Source of the DNA: Candidatus Altimarinota bacterium
Lineage (GTDB): Bacteria; Patescibacteriota; Gracilibacteria; RBG-16-42-10
DNA length: 25,430 bases
Reading direction: 5' to 3'
NCBI GenBank assembly: GCA_017984655.1
Contig: JAGNZB010000003.1
Span: 1 to 25,430 of the forward strand
Every line of letters begins with the position of its first letter. Within the stretch, counting starts at the first letter, position 1. Of this stretch, positions 4,011-22,498 are shown piece after piece. The translations under genes and the position numbers were made by a program. The notes beneath the pieces were generated by a model. It saw only the letters and a program-made list of their open reading frames with translations, was not told the origin of the DNA and made no database searches.

Positions 4011-4045
4011 ATCCATTCAACCGCCCCCCCCAAGAGCCAATCCCC

Positions 4046-4080: not shown

Positions 4081-4138
4081 AACAAGTTGCCCACCCCACC
4101 CAAAGTACCTATAGTAAGCCCAATTGCCTCCCCCACTT

Positions 4139-5794
4139 ATGCTTCAAGCAGTCTGTCGAGTCACTGGCCAGCCATTCATTATTTCTGACAAAGAGCAGGC
4201 TTTTTGTGAAGCCAATGGTATTCCTCTCCCCGATATCTCACCGCTAGAACATCTGCGCATTGCGACCACCTTTACCAATGCGATTTTCCTCTACCAAAAT
4301 ACTTGTGACTTTTCCCACAAACCGATTTTGAGTGCGATACCACCTAATCAAGGCTGGAAAAATTATGATATCGATATCTGGTCCTCTGACCAATGGGACG
4401 CTATGGACTATGGCCGAGACTATGACTTTGGTCGTCCGTTCTTTGATCAATTTTATGACTTGCTCCGAGCAGTCCCGCACCCCAATGTCTCAGCGATCAA
4501 ATCAACATTGGAAAACAGTGACTATACCAATGGTATTGCCTATGCCAAGAATTGTTATCTGGTCTTCATCGCTACCAATGTTGAAGATTGTCTCTTCTCC
4601 ATGCAGCTGACCAAGTGCAAGAATGTCAGTGATTCACTACTGCTCAAAGACTGTGAATTGTGTTTTGGCTCTCGCAATCTCACCAATTGTTATCGGATCG
4701 CTTACTCTGACAGTTGTGAGAACTGCAGCACGAGTAGCTTTTTATTCAATTGCAAAAGTTGTACTGATTGTTATGGCTGTAGCAACCTGGTCAACAAACA
4801 GTATTACTTTGATAATCAACCCTATTCCAAAGAAGAGTACCAAGCCAAAGTCACCGCGATTGATCTCGGCAGCTTTGCGGTCTTGAGTGAACAGCAACAG
4901 AAGTACGAACAGATCTTTAGCAAAGTAGCCCGCAAGTACATGGTTGGCTCCCATACAGAGAACAGTAGTGGCAATTACCTCAACAACACCCAGAACTGTA
5001 TCAACTCCTACTTTGTCGCTGATGCACAAGACGTAGAAAATGGATTGGCCCTGCGTGAAGGCACCAAAGACAGTATGCGTCACGGTGGTTTCGGTATGAA
5101 CGCCGAGCTGATCTATACTTGCCAAGGAGTGGGAGCCAATGCGTACAACCTCAAATTCTGTGTCTCCTGCTACTCCGATGTCCGTGATCTCGAATACTGT
5201 TTCTATACTGGATTTGGTTCTAGTGATTGTTTTGGTTGTGTGGGACTCAAGAAAAAGCAGTACTGTATTTTCAACAAACAATACACCAAGGAGACGTACC
5301 ATGTACTAGTCACTCAAATCAAAGATCAAATGCGCGCCAGTGGCGAATATGGCCAGTTTTTCCCCACTACACTTTCACCATTTGCCTACAACAAATCAGA
5401 AGCTTATAGCTACTTCCCCCTCAGCCGCGAAGCAGCACTTGCCCAGGGATTTGCGTGGGAGAATGAAGAAGAGAATGAATTCATGCAGACCTATATCATT
5501 CCTGACCATATCAAAGATGTCACTGATGAGATCCTTCATCAAGTGCTGAGCTGTGCAAAAACCGGAAAGAAGTACCGCATCATTACCCAAGAACTTGCAA
5601 CATATCGGGACCTGAACATGCCGATCCCCCGCATCGCGCCCCTGGAACGAATTAAAGACAAGCTTACGCAAAATATCTTGAAGCCTCTCCAAAAGATTGC
5701 CTGCAGCAATTGTCAGACAGCACTCGAAAGTGTCTATGATCCAAATGAACATCCAGTCTACTGCGAGACTTGTTATCAGAATTGCTTACAATAA
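4139..5794 (+). CDS. Cysteine-ladder protein with terminal zinc-binding motifs, paralogue 1
   Basis: Function unknown. The 551-residue protein (ATG chosen; an in-frame TTG at 4124 adds five residues) contains a recurrent motif DC-[YF]-GC-x-[NG]-L-x3-KQY followed by FN or DN and a Y-[ST]-KE-x-Y tail. It occurs twice, at about 4765-4850 and 5225-5310. Before each copy cysteines recur about every 11-13 residues (NCYLV, DCLFS, DCELC, NCYRI, ENC, NCKSC), which suggests a stacked beta-helix-like ladder. The C-terminus carries CSNC and CETC, a zinc-ribbon pair. A segment CxxTGxxF/Y with an IPLP or IPIPRIAPLER motif occurs at both ends. No signal peptide or membrane segment is seen. Compared with the paralogue at 7110 it lacks the first N-terminal CxxC zinc pairs. 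From memory, similar proteins are common, unnamed, in CPR genomes. Confidence 0.88.
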   Translation: MLQAVCRVTGQPFIISDKEQAFCEANGIPLPDISPLEHLRIATTFTNAIFLYQNTCDFSHKPILSAIPPNQGWKNYDIDIWSSDQWDAMDYGRDYDFGRPFFDQFYDLLRAVPHPNVSAIKSTLENSDYTNGIAYAKNCYLVFIATNVEDCLFSMQLTKCKNVSDSLLLKDCELCFGSRNLTNCYRIAYSDSCENCSTSSFLFNCKSCTDCYGCSNLVNKQYYFDNQPYSKEEYQAKVTAIDLGSFAVLSEQQQKYEQIFSKVARKYMVGSHTENSSGNYLNNTQNCINSYFVADAQDVENGLALREGTKDSMRHGGFGMNAELIYTCQGVGANAYNLKFCVSCYSDVRDLEYCFYTGFGSSDCFGCVGLKKKQYCIFNKQYTKETYHVLVTQIKDQMRASGEYGQFFPTTLSPFAYNKSEAYSYFPLSREAALAQGFAWENEEENEFMQTYIIPDHIKDVTDEILHQVLSCAKTGKKYRIITQELATYRDLNMPIPRIAPLERIKDKLTQNILKPLQKIACSNCQTALESVYDPNEHPVYCETCYQNCLQ

Positions 5795-6691
5795 TTAGCG
5801 CGTACTGTTCAGATGGCGATGACGTAATGACTCCAAAATCTTGATGTTCTTGAGTTTGACCAGTGGGATCAGTAAGAAAAGGATAGTAATCAATGTCGTA
5901 CTTTCTACAACTTGGAAGTAGCTGTTGGCGAGATACAATGAAACAATAACTCCCAATTGTACTACAGTTTCTACTGGACTAGCCTGACGATCAGAGACTC
6001 GTCCAATCAAAATGCGTGCATGTTCACGGACTCTAGCATCATTGTGATACCGACCAGGAAAGAGCTGAAACAAATATTCAGTATGAATCACCGTATAGGT
6101 GACAAGCGCAGCACTCAAGACCCAGTTGACCCACATCATCCCCGTAGTAATAGAGGTCAAAGCCAAGTCCCCCCAGATCGCTCCGATCCGAATCAAACAA
6201 ACAACCAGAATGACAATCAAGTAAGCAATCGAGTACGCCAGCTTGAGCCAAAAAGGCAAAGACCATTTGATCATACAGCTAACGAATAAGACAGCTGTAG
6301 CCAGCACTGCAAACACCAGCAAAGCAGGAAGCTCAATAAACAAAGTCTTCGCATATGGCACCAAGGTCAGCATGAATAAGACGAACAACAAAAACAGCTT
6401 CGATTCAGTCAGCTTGGGCAAGATCTCTTTGCGCAAATCAAAAGCGACCCAGCTCAAAGCAAAAAAGTACCAACCCATAAAAGATTCTTGACTAAAGAAC
6501 TGATAGGTTTGCTTCCCCGCAATCCACTGCCAAGCAAACAGCACGAGCACCGTCCCCAAAGAAACAATACTAGCCACAGCAAAAGTATTGAGCAGCTTCC
6601 GCCACTGAGCAGCGCCCACCAACCCCACAATCTCCAGAATAGACCCAATCACAATGGCACTAAAGAACAAGTATGGAGTAGAGCTGATCAT
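5795..6691 (-). CDS. Polytopic membrane protein of unknown function
   Basis: This 298-residue protein has about nine hydrophobic segments (near residues 5-27, 32-58, 72-90, 99-117, 118-143, 148-173, 176-200, 243-263 and 266-284). A polar loop rich in Arg and His (FPGRYHNDARVREHARILIGR, about 213-233) separates the last two helices. The positive C-terminus suggests an inside end. I do not recognise the family. It sits tail to tail with the first cysteine-ladder gene with no base between the stop codons. It lies between the two paralogues on the opposite strand, so it is not in one operon with them. The start is ATG at 6691; no Shine-Dalgarno sequence is evident. Confidence 0.85.
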   Translation of the reverse strand: MISSTPYLFFSAIVIGSILEIVGLVGAAQWRKLLNTFAVASIVSLGTVLVLFAWQWIAGKQTYQFFSQESFMGWYFFALSWVAFDLRKEILPKLTESKLFLLFVLFMLTLVPYAKTLFIELPALLVFAVLATAVLFVSCMIKWSLPFWLKLAYSIAYLIVILVVCLIRIGAIWGDLALTSITTGMMWVNWVLSAALVTYTVIHTEYLFQLFPGRYHNDARVREHARILIGRVSDRQASPVETVVQLGVIVSLYLANSYFQVVESTTLITILFLLIPLVKLKNIKILESLRHRHLNSTR

Positions 6692-6766
6692 GCAGTAAGA
6701 ATATTAGTGAGACAACACAGGAAAGATACTAGCACTAAGTATCCTTGCCAACATTTCGCCTCTCCA

Positions 6767-7018
6767 TTTACCTTTCCTTTTACGTTTACGTTCACTTTTC
6801 ATGAGCGAAATAGTCCGGAAAGAAACGTAAAGGTAAAAGTGAAAGGAAAGGTAAAATGAGCTAAATGCTGGGGAGAAAGGAAGAACCGAGATACTCAGCA
6901 AGGTCCTTCGGCTACGCTCAGGATGGCGGGATGAGAAAAATGATGCTACCAAGCCACAATCCTATTTTTCGATGCCCCTCCCCAATTCACAATTCCTCAT
7001 TCCTAATTACTAATTAAT
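6767..7018 (+). repeat. Composite intergenic repeat, copy B
   Basis: This unit has three parts. The hexamer hairpin (6767-6857) has arms TTTACC..TTTACG..TTTCATGAGCG and their complement after TCCGGAAAG. The middle, about 120 bases, contains AACCGAGATACTC, GGTCCTTCGGCTACGCTCAG and CAATCCTATTTTTCGATGCC. The heptamer array AATTCAC-AATTCCT-CATTCCT-AATTACT-AATTAAT is at 6984-7018. The middle is repeated almost base for base, inverted, at 11262-11375. Out-of-frame reading gives the RHPERSRR peptide often seen in spurious ORFs of other bacteria. The rest of 6692-7109 holds no gene; a separate AT array follows. Confidence 0.85.
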
Positions 7019-7031
7019 AAGCCCTCTTCTC

Positions 7032-7065
7032 AATTTATAATTTGTAATTTGTAATTTATAATTTG
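7032..7065. repeat. TAATTTR heptamer tandem array
   Basis: Five tandem seven-base units are seen: AATTTA, TAATTTG, TAATTTG, TAATTTA, TAATTTG. They lie between composite repeat B and the gene at 7110. The unit length equals that of the AATTCCT array next to it, but the sequence is different. It may also act as an AT-rich upstream element for the downstream gene. Confidence 0.8.
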
Positions 7066-7109
7066 AGCCCACTGTGTTATTTTCTAAGTAATGAGGACTA
7101 CTCACATCC

Positions 7110-8801
7110 ATGAACCAAAGCTGCACTACCTGCTCCAATCATTTTGAGATCCACGAGCGTGATCAGTTTTTCTATCAACAGGTTGCTCCTCGAATTGCCA
7201 GCAAACAGTTTGCTTTGCCCTTACCAAGTCAGTGCCCTGACTGTAGACGACAACGCCGGCTCGCTTTTCGCAATGAAAACAATCTCTACAGTCGACCGTG
7301 CGACCTTTGCCACAAAAATATCATCAGTATTTATTCTCCAGACAAAACCTATCCAGTTTATTGTGCCGATTGTTTCTGGAGTGAGAGGTGGGACGCTTTT
7401 GGTTATGGCCAAGACTTTGATTTCACCAAGCCTTTCTTTGAGCAATTCCAAACACTTTTTGAAAGTGTGCCCAAGCTAGGACTGATCATCGCGGAGAATG
7501 AGAATGCTGATTACAACAATAGCGGCGCTTTCTTCAAGAACTGTTACCTTTGTTTTGATGGCGCGCATGCCCAGGACTCATACTATGGTGAGACCTTCCA
7601 AAACATTCGTGACTGTGTTGATTTTCTTTGTCTCCAGGACAGCGAGCTCTGTTACCAATGCGTAAACTGTATCAATAGCTATCAACTCTTCTACTCCTCA
7701 TTTTCTCAGCACTGTTCAGACTCATACTTTCTTTCTGACTGTAGTAGCTGCAAGAATTGTTTTGGTTGTATCAATCTTCACCAGAAGCAATATTACATTT
7801 TCAACCAGCCTCACAGCAAAGAAGACTATGAAGCATTCATTGCCAACCAAGATGTAGGTAGCCACCAGTATGTCGAGGCAATGAAGGTCAAAGTGAACCA
7901 ACTTTTTAGCACCTATCCACGCCGTGCTTATCGCGGTACAGCCAATGACCAGGTCAGCGGCGACAACATCGTCCACTGTCACCAAAGCTACGACAACTAT
8001 GATTGCAAAGACATGGCTGATTGTAGCTATTGTACCCAAGTGATTTCAAAAGCCGCCAACTGTCAGGATATCGACAAATGGGGTGAAAATATCTCATGGT
8101 GCTTCAATAGCTCAGGTGTGGGCAACAATGCCCAAAATGTCCTTTGTAGTTATTATGCCACCTTCAATGCCGACAGTATTCTCTACTCAGCTTTTTGTTG
8201 GCATGGTTGCAGTCAGCTGTTTGGCTGTGTCGGCCTCAATCGTCAGAAAAGTTATTGTATTTTGAACAAGCAATACACCAAGGAAGCTTACGAAGCTCTG
8301 GTACCCCAAATTATTGCCCACATGCAAAAGACCGGTGAATGGGGCCAGTTCTTCCCTCCACACCTCTCAGCTTTTGGTTACAACGAATCAGTCGCCCAAG
8401 AGTACTATCCGTTGACTAAGGATGGAGCTCAACAAGCTGATTATCATTGGTCTGACTACAGCACAGCCAAACTCGGCTCTGATGCAGTTGAGGCAAGCCA
8501 ATCACCCGATCGGATCACCGATTGTCCTGACAGCATCCTTTCAACAATCATTACTTGCCCAGTAAGCCATAAGCATTTCCGAATCACCAAACCCGAGCTC
8601 CAGTTCTATCGCACCCATTCAATCCCCTTACCACATCTCCACCCCACAGAAAGAAATCGCTACCTAAAGAACCAGAAAAATCCTCGCCAACTTTGGCAAA
8701 GAATGTGTGCTCAGTGTCAAAAGAGCATTACTAGTAGTTATGCACCAACTTCTGCAGCTACAGTCTATTGTGAAGAGTGTTACCAGAAAGTGATTGTCTA
8801 A
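7110..8801 (+). CDS. Cysteine-ladder protein with N- and C-terminal zinc motifs, paralogue 2
   Basis: Function unknown; 563 residues, the fuller version of the protein at 4139. The N-terminus has CTTC, CPDC-RRQRRL-x-FRNEN, CDLC and YPVYCADC, which read as two treble-clef or zinc-ribbon units. WDAFGYGQDFDFTKPFFEQF and KNCYLCF follow, matching paralogue 1 (WDAMDYGRDYDFGRPFF, KNCYLVF). The cysteine ladder runs to NCFGCINLHQKQYYIFNQ; a second half ends in LFGCVGLNRQKSYCILNKQ and EWGQFFPPHLSAF-YNES. The C-terminus repeats CPVSHKHFRIT..IPLPHLHPTER and ends with CAQC...CEEC. GAGGA lies 12 bases before the ATG, a loose ribosome binding site. No signal peptide is seen, so a cytoplasmic place is likely. 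Protein scaffolding or nucleic-acid binding is possible but unproven. Confidence 0.9.
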   Translation: MNQSCTTCSNHFEIHERDQFFYQQVAPRIASKQFALPLPSQCPDCRRQRRLAFRNENNLYSRPCDLCHKNIISIYSPDKTYPVYCADCFWSERWDAFGYGQDFDFTKPFFEQFQTLFESVPKLGLIIAENENADYNNSGAFFKNCYLCFDGAHAQDSYYGETFQNIRDCVDFLCLQDSELCYQCVNCINSYQLFYSSFSQHCSDSYFLSDCSSCKNCFGCINLHQKQYYIFNQPHSKEDYEAFIANQDVGSHQYVEAMKVKVNQLFSTYPRRAYRGTANDQVSGDNIVHCHQSYDNYDCKDMADCSYCTQVISKAANCQDIDKWGENISWCFNSSGVGNNAQNVLCSYYATFNADSILYSAFCWHGCSQLFGCVGLNRQKSYCILNKQYTKEAYEALVPQIIAHMQKTGEWGQFFPPHLSAFGYNESVAQEYYPLTKDGAQQADYHWSDYSTAKLGSDAVEASQSPDRITDCPDSILSTIITCPVSHKHFRITKPELQFYRTHSIPLPHLHPTERNRYLKNQKNPRQLWQRMCAQCQKSITSSYAPTSAATVYCEECYQKVIV

Positions 8802-8861
8802 ACTAGGCAGCTGCTGCCAAAAGGATTATGATCACTCTAGCTATTTTTGTCCCCCCAGCAT

Positions 8862-9371
8862 ATGAACGAATCAATAGCAGCAGATCCAGGACAAACACCT
8901 GAGCCGATCAATCCAAGAGTGATCAGAAAATCGGTAGCAGCTTTGTTCGTACGTGCCGGGATCACGGCGGTAATTGTCGGCGTCATCTGCTACATCATTA
9001 CCATTATCCTCACCCTGGTTGGACTCTATCCTAGTGACATCTTCTTGGTCACTGGTGTTTTCTTCATCACCGTATTTGGTATCTACTTGATCACTTCTTT
9101 CCTACAGTGGTACAGTAGCTACTACATTCTCCGCCAAGATAGCGTCACGTATGCTGTTGGCACCTTTGCCCACAAAGAAAAAGGGTTCGCCTTGAAGAAC
9201 ATGAGTACGGTCAGTGTCAAACAAAGCTTGATCGGCCAGCTACTCCACTACGGCACAATCAGAATGACATTTAGTACACCAACCACCACGGAGTCTGAAA
9301 TGTACATGGCTGACATCAGTGAGCCCAACGAGATCAAGACCATCATCGAACATATTGCGATCAAGAAATAA
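8862..9371 (+). CDS. Membrane protein with bacterial PH-like (bPH2/YdbS) domain
   Basis: The protein has a polar N-terminal tail and two hydrophobic segments (IRAGITAVIVGVICYIITII-type, and a DIFLVTGVFFITVFGIYLI-type). These are followed by SSYYILRQDSVTYAVGTF and LKNMSTVSVKQSLIGQLLHYG. This is the usual layout of YdbS-like proteins, where the PH-like fold follows two helices at the cytoplasmic face. The ATG at 8862 gives 169 residues; an in-frame TTG at 8847 is less likely. The exact role in this family is not well known. It lies 60 bases after the cysteine-ladder gene and 38 bases before the lipoprotein, on the same strand. Confidence 0.8.
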   Translation: MNESIAADPGQTPEPINPRVIRKSVAALFVRAGITAVIVGVICYIITIILTLVGLYPSDIFLVTGVFFITVFGIYLITSFLQWYSSYYILRQDSVTYAVGTFAHKEKGFALKNMSTVSVKQSLIGQLLHYGTIRMTFSTPTTTESEMYMADISEPNEIKTIIEHIAIKK

Positions 9372-9409
9372 TTAGTACCCATTACCTTTATTTTTAATTG
9401 CTCCTCTCT

Positions 9410-9775
9410 ATGAAAAAAGCTCTTATCATCACCGCTCTCATCCTTAGTGGTTGTGGCACGACAACAACTCCGCTGACTGCTCCTGGTGCCACACAAACAC
9501 CAACACCAGCTGTCACCGTAGCGCCAAATACCACCTACACCCTAGCCCAAGTAGCTGAACACGCCACCCCCACAGACTGCTGGCTAGCACTCAGTGGCAA
9601 AGTCTACAATGTCACCGACTTCATCGCCGCCAACCAACATCCAGGAGGCGAAGCAATCCTAGCCGGCTGCGGCAAAGACGCCACCGCCATGTTTGAAAAC
9701 AGACCCAACGGCACCGCCCACTCTCCTCAAGCACGTGAACTAGTCAAGAACTTCTATATCGGCGATCTCAACTAG
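9410..9775 (+). CDS. Lipoprotein with cytochrome b5-like heme-binding domain
   Basis: MKKALIITALILSGC is a short lipoprotein signal peptide with an LSGC lipobox; the mature protein would be acylated at that cysteine. After a Thr/Pro/Ala-rich linker comes a cytochrome b5 fold from about residue 45: YTLAQVAEHATPTDCWLALS, GKVYNVTDF, NQHPGGEAI, GCGKDATAMF, HSPQARELV and FYIGDLN. The HPGG histidine and the later His of AHS are the two expected axial heme ligands, and both are present. It is therefore probably a membrane-tethered heme protein or an electron or steroid-like ligand carrier outside the cell. Heme binding is predicted only. The ATG at 9410 is preferred over TTG at 9398. Confidence 0.9.
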   Translation: MKKALIITALILSGCGTTTTPLTAPGATQTPTPAVTVAPNTTYTLAQVAEHATPTDCWLALSGKVYNVTDFIAANQHPGGEAILAGCGKDATAMFENRPNGTAHSPQARELVKNFYIGDLN

Positions 9776-20065: not shown

Positions 20066-22498
20066 ATGAAGAAACTGGTATCGTATTGCTTAAGCATTGC
20101 AATCAGCTTGATGTGTTTTTTGGTAGCACCAGCTCCCGTGCTAGCGGCTCCGGCTGCTGATTTTTTCACCACCTGGGAAACTACTGTGGATGGTGAATCA
20201 ATTACGATCCCGACGACAGGTTCCGGCTACAACTACAATGTCGATTGGGGAGACACTACCGGTAGTGTCGGCGTCACAGGGAACGCTACCCATACCTATG
20301 CAACCGCTGGAATATATACAGTAATTATTTCTGGTGATTTCCCTCGTATTTATTTTCAGCTGGCTTCCGATCCGGAAAAGATACGATCAGTAGAACACTG
20401 GGGTACTAGAGCTTGGACATCTATGAGTGGCGCATTTGCGAACACCAACAACCTAGTCATCAATGCTACTGACATCCCCAATTTTTCAGCAATGACTAAT
20501 GCTTCATCCATGTTCATGGGTGCCAGCCAATTGACCACTATACCCAACATCAATGATTGGGATGTCTCTACCATTACCAATATGGCCAGTATGTTCTTTG
20601 GTACTCCCTTCAATGCTGATATCTCAGACTGGGATGTGTCCAATGTCACCAATATGAACAATATGTTTGGTAATGCTAGCGAGTTCAATCAAGATATTAG
20701 TAACTGGAACACCGCTAGCCTGACGTTGATTGAGAGTATGTTTTCTTATGCTGTAGCATTCAACCAGGATATTAGTAGTTGGGATGTATCCCAGATCGAC
20801 AGTACGATTAGTCTTTTTTCTCATGCTGCGGCTTTTGATCAAAACTTAGCTGCTTGGAATATAGCTAATGTGCTCGCAATGCATGATATGTTTGTGGATT
20901 CAGGGATGTCTACTACCAACTATGACGCCACATTGATTGGTTGGGCTACACAAGCTGTAGAAAGCAATGTCACCTTCAATGCCATAGGTACCCAATATTG
21001 TGCCGCATGGCAACAACACGCCACATTCATCGCTACTTATAATTGGACCATTCTAGATGACGGCATCGTAGACGGGGATTGTACGGTGACAGCTTCACCC
21101 ACCCTCTCAGCACCGCTCTCTGCCTCATCTCATGTCACCAACGTCCCCTTAACTATTTCATTTGTTCTTCCCGAAACCCCGCTGCCCGGGAGTGTTCGCC
21201 TCACCTTCACCCCCAGTATCGGCACTCCAATCGTGATCACTCTCAGCGATCCGGCACCGACCGTGCTCAATACATTTGCATTACCACTGAGAGGAGGCTT
21301 CGCCAGTACTAGCGAGGTCATCTCTGCTACTGCTTCTGAGATTCCAGCTGGTAGCTATACGATCACCCTTAGCTACCAAGACGAGATTGGCAATGCCGCA
21401 GCATCGAGTTCCGTAACTACAGTCACTCTTACAGCCCCCACAGAAGGGACATTACAGTTCCACATCTTTACTGATGATGACAAAAATGGTGTCCAAGGCA
21501 CAGCAGAAGACGATGGTTTCTCTGGAGCCACCCTAACAATCATTCAGGGCTCAGAGAGTGAAGAAGTTTCTTTTGATGAGCATGGTGATATCGACTCGAG
21601 TATTGCTGTGGGTACCTATACTTTGCGCGTCAATGTTCCTAGTGGCTATTCTCTCAGTGGTGGAGCAAATAACTTTTCAGTCACCATTACCGGTGGAGAC
21701 ACCACAGATGCTGGTAGCCGAGGAATTATTGTCCGCGCTGCCAGTAGTGGTGGCGGAGGTGGTAGTAGCGGTAGCAGTGGCAGCTCATTCTCAAGCAGTT
21801 TCAGTTCTAGTTCAAGCTCGAGCTCCAGTCTCAGAACAAGCAGCACCAGTAGTACCACTCCCGCAACTACTGATGACCTACCCACTCCCCAACCAAAAGA
21901 AGCTGTATGTTTAACAGCTGGTACAGCAGCAATACAATTTACTGACATCCAGAACAATAACGATGTCAGTTACCTGACCAAGCTCACTTTCAAGAGTGAC
22001 CCTAGTCGTCATTTGATCAATGGGTATAATCCTCTCCACTTTGGCCCCCATAACCAGCTTACTCGTTTTGAACTCTTGAAGATCGCCATCGGTAGCAACT
22101 GTGTTGGTGGTGGTAATTATACTAATTTCACACATACCAATACTCACTTCATTGATGTTCCCAAAGACAACTCAGAACAATCAAAAATTATTGGCGAAGC
22201 ATTTAGTCGAGGCATTGTCACTGGAGTCGGTGATCGTTTCTTTCCTGACACCCCAGTTTCTTTTGCTGAAATGACCAAAATGATCTTGGCTTCTTCAGCA
22301 TATTTCAATGAGGGAATACCAAACATCGCACTCACAGTTAGCAGCACCGATCTCCCCGATCCTTCATTTGCTCAACCAGTAGAATATGCCAAAAGACTAG
22401 GCATACTGCCAACCACGTTCGCTCCTCGCAATCCGGTCAACCGAGTGGAAATGGCCAATGTTCTCGCTAAGTATATTCAAGCGATGCACAGTCTTTAG
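20066..22498 (+). CDS. SLH-anchored surface protein with BspA-like (DUF285) repeats
   Basis: This is a large secreted protein of 810 residues. A signal peptide (1-27, ending VLAAPA) is followed by a PKD-like N-terminal region (YNYNVDWGDTTG, HTYATAGIYTVIISG). Residues about 140-330 are DUF285/BspA-like repeats with the motif FNQDISSWDVS..TNMxxMF. About 340-455 is an Ig-like domain. About 460-555 is an SdrD-B-like domain with a Ca-binding type loop DDDKNGVQGTAEDDGFSG. A Gly/Ser stretch (559-598) is a flexible spacer. About 620-810 are three SLH-like repeats (FTDIQN, FIDVPKDN, IVTGVGDRFFPDTP), which in other bacteria hold proteins on the cell wall. It is likely a surface adhesin or S-layer associated protein. 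It has no visible ribosome binding site. Confidence 0.93.
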   Translation: MKKLVSYCLSIAISLMCFLVAPAPVLAAPAADFFTTWETTVDGESITIPTTGSGYNYNVDWGDTTGSVGVTGNATHTYATAGIYTVIISGDFPRIYFQLASDPEKIRSVEHWGTRAWTSMSGAFANTNNLVINATDIPNFSAMTNASSMFMGASQLTTIPNINDWDVSTITNMASMFFGTPFNADISDWDVSNVTNMNNMFGNASEFNQDISNWNTASLTLIESMFSYAVAFNQDISSWDVSQIDSTISLFSHAAAFDQNLAAWNIANVLAMHDMFVDSGMSTTNYDATLIGWATQAVESNVTFNAIGTQYCAAWQQHATFIATYNWTILDDGIVDGDCTVTASPTLSAPLSASSHVTNVPLTISFVLPETPLPGSVRLTFTPSIGTPIVITLSDPAPTVLNTFALPLRGGFASTSEVISATASEIPAGSYTITLSYQDEIGNAAASSSVTTVTLTAPTEGTLQFHIFTDDDKNGVQGTAEDDGFSGATLTIIQGSESEEVSFDEHGDIDSSIAVGTYTLRVNVPSGYSLSGGANNFSVTITGGDTTDAGSRGIIVRAASSGGGGGSSGSSGSSFSSSFSSSSSSSSSLRTSSTSSTTPATTDDLPTPQPKEAVCLTAGTAAIQFTDIQNNNDVSYLTKLTFKSDPSRHLINGYNPLHFGPHNQLTRFELLKIAIGSNCVGGGNYTNFTHTNTHFIDVPKDNSEQSKIIGEAFSRGIVTGVGDRFFPDTPVSFAEMTKMILASSAYFNEGIPNIALTVSSTDLPDPSFAQPVEYAKRLGILPTTFAPRNPVNRVEMANVLAKYIQAMHSL

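Follow-up and report, generated by a model that had tools for sequence, protein, structure and literature searches.

The genes reported here resemble two groups of described proteins: the zinc domains modelled by zf_Tbcl_2 (PF23477), zf_Tbcl (PF13451) and TIGR04272 (with the pattern CxxC-x17-CxxC), and the type IV coupling proteins VirD4, TrwB and TraG. According to PMC12102498, 148 of the 5,713 VirD4-like genes of Patescibacteria lie near virB4, and another function of the coupling protein cannot be ruled out. The stretch of DNA analyzed here (referred to below as the window) covers positions 1 to 25,430 of contig JAGNZB010000003.1 of a Candidatus Altimarinota bacterium (assembly GCA_017984655.1, forward strand). 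It carries two open reading frames, ORF1 and ORF2, that belong to a cysteine-module protein family, for which F is used as shorthand (F+ and F- being genomes with and without it). F is similar to the zinc models in its ends, and an ATPase that recurs beside F genes is similar to the type IV coupling proteins, scoring above the cut-offs for PF02534 and PF10412. Inside the class to which the window's genome belongs, the partnership of F with this ATPase is well supported; outside this class, the picture is less clean.

Both ORF1 and ORF2 proved to be genuine and complete members of a very large family. Each runs from one zinc domain through two successive cysteine modules to another zinc domain, and their features in window coordinates are as follows:

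4139..5794, + strand: family gene 1 (ORF1), 551 aa from the ATG at 4139; member of a subfamily with a degenerate N-terminal zinc domain
4400..4906, + strand: gene 1 cysteine module 1, from profile comparison
4766..4840, + strand: gene 1 first GC-x-[NG]-L motif, DCYGCSNLVNKQYYFDNQPYSKEEY, from the translation
4892..5362, + strand: gene 1 cysteine module 2, from profile comparison
5225..5299, + strand: gene 1 second GC-x-[NG]-L motif, DCFGCVGLKKKQYCIFNKQYTKETY, from the translation
5519..5791, + strand: gene 1 C-terminal zinc domain, from alignment to gene 2; 4 of 4 pair cysteines present
7110..8801, + strand: family gene 2 (ORF2), 563 aa; member of a subfamily from 13 surveyed records (tree support 1.0)
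7110..7379, + strand: gene 2 N-terminal zinc domain; 8 of 8 pair cysteines present
7395..7895, + strand: gene 2 cysteine module 1, with a 3-residue cysteine register
7755..7829, + strand: gene 2 first GC-x-[NG]-L motif, NCFGCINLHQKQYYIFNQPHSKEDY, from the translation
7881..8354, + strand: gene 2 cysteine module 2, from profile comparison
8217..8291, + strand: gene 2 second GC-x-[NG]-L motif, which showed the strongest conservation in a comparison of ten stretches (mean entropy 1.22 bits, 261 proteins)
8523..8798, + strand: gene 2 C-terminal zinc domain, above the cut-off for PF23477

The ORF1 frame (4124-5794) is open from a TTG at 4124 (556 aa), and the in-frame ATG at 4139 is the start given in the initial annotation. 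The two proteins are 35% identical across 530 residues and contain 29 (ORF1) and 37 (ORF2) cysteines. They had been described as tandem paralogues: they are indeed homologous and encoded on the same strand, but they are not directly adjacent, as they are separated by an opposite-strand ORF of 298 aa (5795-6691) that matches nothing in Pfam. In the gap ahead of the second gene there is also an imperfect 39-base inverted repeat (6762-6860).

The two internal modules proposed for each protein were recovered: ORF1 and ORF2 each carry two copies of the GC-x-[NG]-L motif and its [ST]KE.Y tail, and residues 90-262 of ORF2 are homologous to residues 263-420 (hhalign 99.7%, E-value: 2E-26). The predicted zinc ends were confirmed as well, with the first 90 residues of ORF2 homologous to the last 92 (hhalign 99.8%, E-value: 3.4E-28) and the ends matching treble-clef zinc models. 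ORF2 passes the cut-off for PF23477 (29.5 bits, cut-off 27), with a best stretch of 35 of its 563 residues, and falls under those for PF13451 (15.6, cut-off 24) and TIGR04272 (24.1, cut-off 36); ORF1 has no match in Pfam or NCBIfam. At an E-value of 0.1 or better, PF23477 was matched by 48 of 61 F members and PF13451 by 25. The three zinc models are 37-48 positions long, and the central part of F is unmatched above cut-off. As no Pfam or NCBIfam model matches the cysteine modules above its cut-off and no PDB sequence resembles them convincingly, the view that this family lacks a characterized relative stands. Searches of the modules against PDB and against Pfam at E-values up to 10 gave scattered weak matches and no fold hint. 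A weak match to the Pfam model Med15_N recurs in 20 of 61 members (best E-value: 1E-5) and in 3 of 15 module 2 pieces, and residues 141-221 of ORF1 show a borderline match to phrog_15341 (E-value: 9E-4), a phage family without known function. A phage origin of F was considered and rejected, with only one partial locus found in a scan of IMG/VR.

Genes beside F were surveyed from at least 502 relatives, 80 of which were kept, giving 76 loci; counts refer to 73 named loci and the window. They leave out L067, L073 and L082 and include L032, four loci whose F genes are full-length only when TGA is read as glycine (genetic code 25). Neighbours in this survey are not annotated genes but open frames of at least 80 aa, selected for their length. 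Two neighbour clusters recurred most often: a TrmB-type regulator, with 43 genes spread over 30 records, and the ATPase, with 20 genes spread over 19; the next cluster was present in 11 of the 74 records, and most clusters were without annotation. The ATPase is about 747 residues in length and matches the T4SS-DNA_transf and TrwB models; in the one member scanned, from L012, the scores were 39.9 bits for PF02534 (cut-off 20.1) and 34.3 bits for PF10412 (cut-off 20.5). Its nearest PDB sequence is TrwB (E-value: 0.0016), and its N-terminal part (about 310 residues) has no Pfam match above cut-off. Eighteen of the 20 neighbour ATPases share about 50% identity or more with one reference and are referred to as array-type; the other two share 35-37%.

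Co-occurrence was analyzed in 192 genomes drawn from the class of the window's genome, with F+ defined by a match at an E-value of 1E-60. The main form of the array-type ATPase was defined by a score of 815 bits or more, below which there is a gap to 666 bits, and a diverged form by at least 704 bits with the code-25 ATPase of L073 as the query (this gene lies about 93 bp behind an F gene). Ninety-eight genomes were F+, 76 had the main-form ATPase and 75 had both, while the main form was found in 1 of the 94 F- genomes. Eighteen of the 23 F+ genomes without the main form belong to families f157, f160 and f164, where F has in-frame TGA codons. The diverged form was found in 16 of these 18 and in none of the 13 F- genomes tested (of 24 listed) from the same families, the best score among the latter being 376 bits. 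When both forms are counted, 91 of the 98 F+ genomes have an array-type ATPase, and it is a single gene in 74 of the 76 main-form genomes. In nine other families with both states, 60 genomes had F and the ATPase, 4 had F only, 1 had the ATPase only and 32 had neither (Mantel-Haenszel P = 1.7E-15); the family table covers 166 genomes with a family assignment, one of which (G316) came from a draw across the phylum. F is mixed in eight genera outside the three TGA-reading families, and in these F and the ATPase change together with a single exception (G533). Similarly, in a set of 20 relatives the ATPase (at least 755 bits, one copy) was present in 10 of 10 F+ genomes and 0 of 10 F- genomes, where the best paralogue scored 524 bits or less; these relatives are part of the class draw and so are not independent of it.

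The ATPase and F are often close together, the ATPase gene frequently coming right after a run of F genes. For 16 of the 18 array-type ATPases in the F-centred records, no selected ORF lies between the ATPase and F, and the two less similar ATPases are one and four ORFs from F. As the survey loci were chosen for F, part of this proximity is built in; the co-occurrence tests were not subject to that choice. Among the 10 F+ relatives, 8 of the 10 array-type ATPases lie 53-1156 bp from an F gene (about 0.24 expected), and 13 of the 36 TrmB genes have a divergent F gene at a distance of up to 2 kb, which shrinks to 400 bp or less in 10 cases (about 0.2 expected); these chance expectations are rough and the counts use 123 of 141 F matches, 18 short pieces having been dropped. 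The TrmB-family regulators (PF01978) are helix-turn-helix proteins, and the two that were scanned (255 and 277 aa) score above the cut-off for that model. In the neighbour survey, 36 of the 43 TrmB genes touch an F gene, 24 of them divergently. The window's genome has one divergent TrmB-F pair, on contig C72, and carries its ATPase on contig C21 (2951-5167) near an F gene (6014-7669), with an opposite-strand ORF of 225 aa between them. Diverged partial F matches were also observed near another ATPase of the same superfamily in G334 (contig C22, 28622-32170) and G194 (contig C19, 5476-10238), and the link may therefore predate the full-length form of F.

A protein search in which the 7,993 candidates sharing most words were scored gave at least 6,035 matches to F at an E-value of 0.001, and 120 were listed. 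Among the matches listed, 91-100% of the query is covered, the named organisms are Patescibacteria (Abawacabacteria, Peribacteria, Gracilibacteria and unplaced ones) and the annotation is hypothetical or zinc-ribbon protein. A full-length F gene was also observed in L048, a record that bears the title Micrarchaeota archaeon; two of the genes around it group with neighbours from Patescibacteria records, and the record may therefore reflect a binning error. Thirteen F copies, amounting to 2.0% of all bases, were counted in the window's genome (G000; 1.05 Mb in 92 contigs). Full-length F was found in 10 of the 20 relatives, and two more have only partial matches. In G382 there are 48 matches, of which 36 exceed 1500 bases, and they make up about 7.8% of its genome (size given as 0.9 Mb); in G519 there are 56. 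The longest same-strand run is 8 genes (L013). In the wider phylum draw, 127 of 379 genomes have a match at an E-value of 0.001, many of these being a zinc end only. Copy numbers quoted for G000, the relatives and G519 come from searches that scored all first-look candidates, while those from the phylum draw (at most 3 candidates scored in each genome) and the class draw (at most 7) are lower bounds. In G476 (contig C4, L141-L143), full-length F genes and shorter members, whose zinc ends are incomplete, tend to alternate, a pattern suggestive of paired partners. Matches in G519 that end near model position 436 had raised the idea of a replaced C-terminal domain; this was rejected, as no such tail was present in 8 code-25 stretches.

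In a tree of 261 full-length F proteins (midpoint root), ORF1 and ORF2 fall into two old subfamilies, and a recent duplication of the pair was rejected on this basis. The ORF2 group contains genes from 13 records (support 1.0). The ORF1 group has 21 members (support 0.93), including 9 of the 13 F copies of the window's genome, and each member has 1 to 3 of the 8 N-terminal zinc cysteines. ORF1 itself has 2 of these 8 and ORF2 has all 8, and both have 4 of 4 at the C-terminus. The loss of the first zinc units noted for ORF1 is a trait of an old subfamily and not of this pair. The further suggestion that functions were split within the pair is unsupported because the two genes belong to different old subfamilies. 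Only 40 of 241 F proteins have their closest relative in the same genome (with some contigs pooled as one genome), so F copies are mostly old paralogues that have been kept apart.

A cysteine repeat with a period of 11-13 residues, from which a putative cysteine-lined and perhaps metal-binding solenoid was proposed in the initial annotation, was rejected as the main regularity by a period and shuffle test. In module 1, a single 3-residue register instead accommodates all 12 cysteines of ORF1 and 11 of the 12 of ORF2 (equalled in 0 of 2000 shuffles); this register is absent from module 2 in both proteins. Periods of 11-13 gave marginal signals in ORF1 (P = 0.03 at 11 for module 1, P = 0.04 at 11 and 13 for module 2) and no signal in ORF2. 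Across the 261 proteins, mean entropy is 1.22 bits for motif 2, 2.25 for module 1 and 2.68 for module 2, and between 4 and 13 of 13 module cysteines are retained. No 19-residue stretch with a mean hydropathy of 1.6 or more was found in 254 of the 261.

Members of the coupling-protein superfamily recognize clients for export. The ATPase is usually single while F ranges from 1 to about 50 matches per genome, and one motor with many variable genes suggests that F supplies variable cargo or recognition partners. Because of these two considerations, the recognition of export clients by the superfamily and the service of many variable genes by one motor, we tentatively favour an explanation in which a functional module of Patescibacteria would consist of F and a single VirD4/TrwB-superfamily ATPase that looks soluble, with F as the variable cargo. 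F proteins would be variable clients of the ATPase motor, which may recognize the conserved stretches of these proteins, located at the zinc ends and where module 2 ends; the variable module body would carry individual activity or specificity, and the TrmB regulators would switch sub-sets of F. The likeliest outcome would be delivery of F, or of something bound to F, to a type IV secretion-like channel toward a partner cell. With greater reserve, it is possible that a soluble coupling-type ATPase repurposed from type IV secretion drives a switchable F repertoire for partner-cell interaction, as a previously undescribed system. If true, the missing clients would be identified for part of the orphan VirD4-like proteins in Patescibacteria.

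Several observations weigh against F as cargo of this ATPase. Zinc domains such as the ends of F are usually intracellular, and the observed tie between F and the ATPase is one of genetic linkage. Judged by hydropathy only, no stretch of the ATPase resembles a membrane anchor (the highest mean over 19 residues is 0.94-1.18 in 14 of 14 proteins), while coupling proteins are described as inner-membrane proteins in PMC12102498. A lost membrane segment was rejected as a hallmark of the array-type ATPase, as two other paralogues tested also have low values (1.06 and 1.58). The ATPase at L012:14375-16615 matches phrog_5156, a phage family without known function (E-value: 1.5E-72). VirB4-type ATPases (PF19044) are present in 19 of the 20 relatives with or without F, so a channel does not seem to track F, and VirB4 was rejected as a gene that travels with F. 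The association itself has exceptions. Seven F+ class genomes have no array-type ATPase (G392, G439, G494, G495, G533, G451 and G526, of which G451 is 85% and G526 73% complete), G449 has the ATPase and no F match, and two ATPase copies are present in G443 and G491 (main form) and in G428 (diverged form). Among the relatives, 2 of the 10 ATPases lie on a contig that carries no F, and the window pair has neither the ATPase nor TrmB beside either gene. Outside the class, ATPase scores form a continuum without a clear gap: they run from 854 to 800 bits for G014, G307, G274, G340, G162, G194 and G152, of which G162 and G152 have a zinc-end match only, and the F+ genomes G163, G357 and G365 of another family have no ATPase score above about 650.

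F proteins might instead be adaptors, a set of interchangeable subunits for recognition in an intracellular ATPase machine. This machine would work on nucleic acid or protein, perhaps in defence, with F staying inside the cell and giving the motor its targets. We consider this possible, if somewhat doubtful. The absence of a transmembrane-like stretch from the ATPase is the best argument for it. Also in agreement are the zinc ends, the presence of a single motor whose partners are many and variable, and the tendency of full and short F genes to alternate within one array. The ATPase also weakly resembles the mads_8 (E-value: 3.7E-13) and HerA models of PADLOC, but ORF1 and ORF2 matched 0 PADLOC families, on which ground a known defence family was rejected for F, and beyond TrmB and the ATPase no neighbour cluster exceeds the 11 records given above, though these clusters mostly lack annotation and may include an effector gene.

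It is improbable that F stores or buffers zinc or another thiophilic metal, or is a structural thiol-rich protein, with the ATPase and TrmB links being secondary. The numbers of cysteines (29 and 37), the strict register in module 1 and the zinc ends would suit such a role, but many module cysteines are replaced across the family (as few as 4 of 13 are kept), and a store would presumably need neither a dedicated ATPase nor many old subfamilies. Least likely is genomic hitchhiking, in which F and the ATPase lie on one region gained or lost as a block: the two are often adjacent, so that one deletion could remove both, but many F genes are on contigs other than that of the ATPase, F is present in only 7 of 100 class genomes without either ATPase form (the diverged form was sought in 37), the joint changes in the eight mixed genera have G533 as their one exception, and the rule is valid on both sides of the genetic-code change.

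Other features of the window include an AT-rich dispersed repeat, CCAATTCATAATTCCTAATT, at positions 4044, 4058, 6982, 6989, 11234, 11248, 11490 and 11497 (8 matches with up to 3 mismatches, 0.01 expected). It occurs upstream of both F genes and elsewhere in the window, and a family-specific upstream element was rejected for this reason. In the same genome, its core was found on contig C13 (L120) and was absent from the other 8 F contig stretches examined. Downstream of the second F gene, on the + strand, are genes for a bacterial PH-domain protein (8847-9371) and for a protein (9398-9775) that starts like a lipoprotein and contains a cytochrome b5-like domain. Farther along the same strand, 20066-22498 encodes a probable cell-surface protein of 810 aa that combines DUF285 repeats with an SLH domain and also matches PKD weakly.

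In comparison with described systems, the zinc ends and the ATPase superfamily are already known. In a literature search that covered few subscription papers and no bioRxiv preprints, no paper turned up whose title or opening abstract lines describe the cysteine-module family or connect it with the ATPase. Unlike type IV coupling proteins, the F-linked ATPase has no transmembrane-like stretch and has F as its genetic partner, and F is a candidate partner for one clade of the VirD4-like proteins of Patescibacteria. It is striking that streamlined bacteria devote 2-8% of a one-megabase genome to one family. The association gives a concrete partner to a family known by its zinc ends and candidate clients to one group of orphan VirD4-like ATPases, and the question of the role of the ATPase, left open in PMC12102498, becomes answerable by binding and secretion tests. 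The tandem VirB2 pilin arrays of Patescibacteria, as presented in PMC12102498, are likewise arrays of divergent paralogues tied to type IV secretion-related genes; F proteins are unlike these pilins in being about 560 aa in length, in having zinc ends and, in 254 of 261 cases, in being without a hydrophobic stretch.

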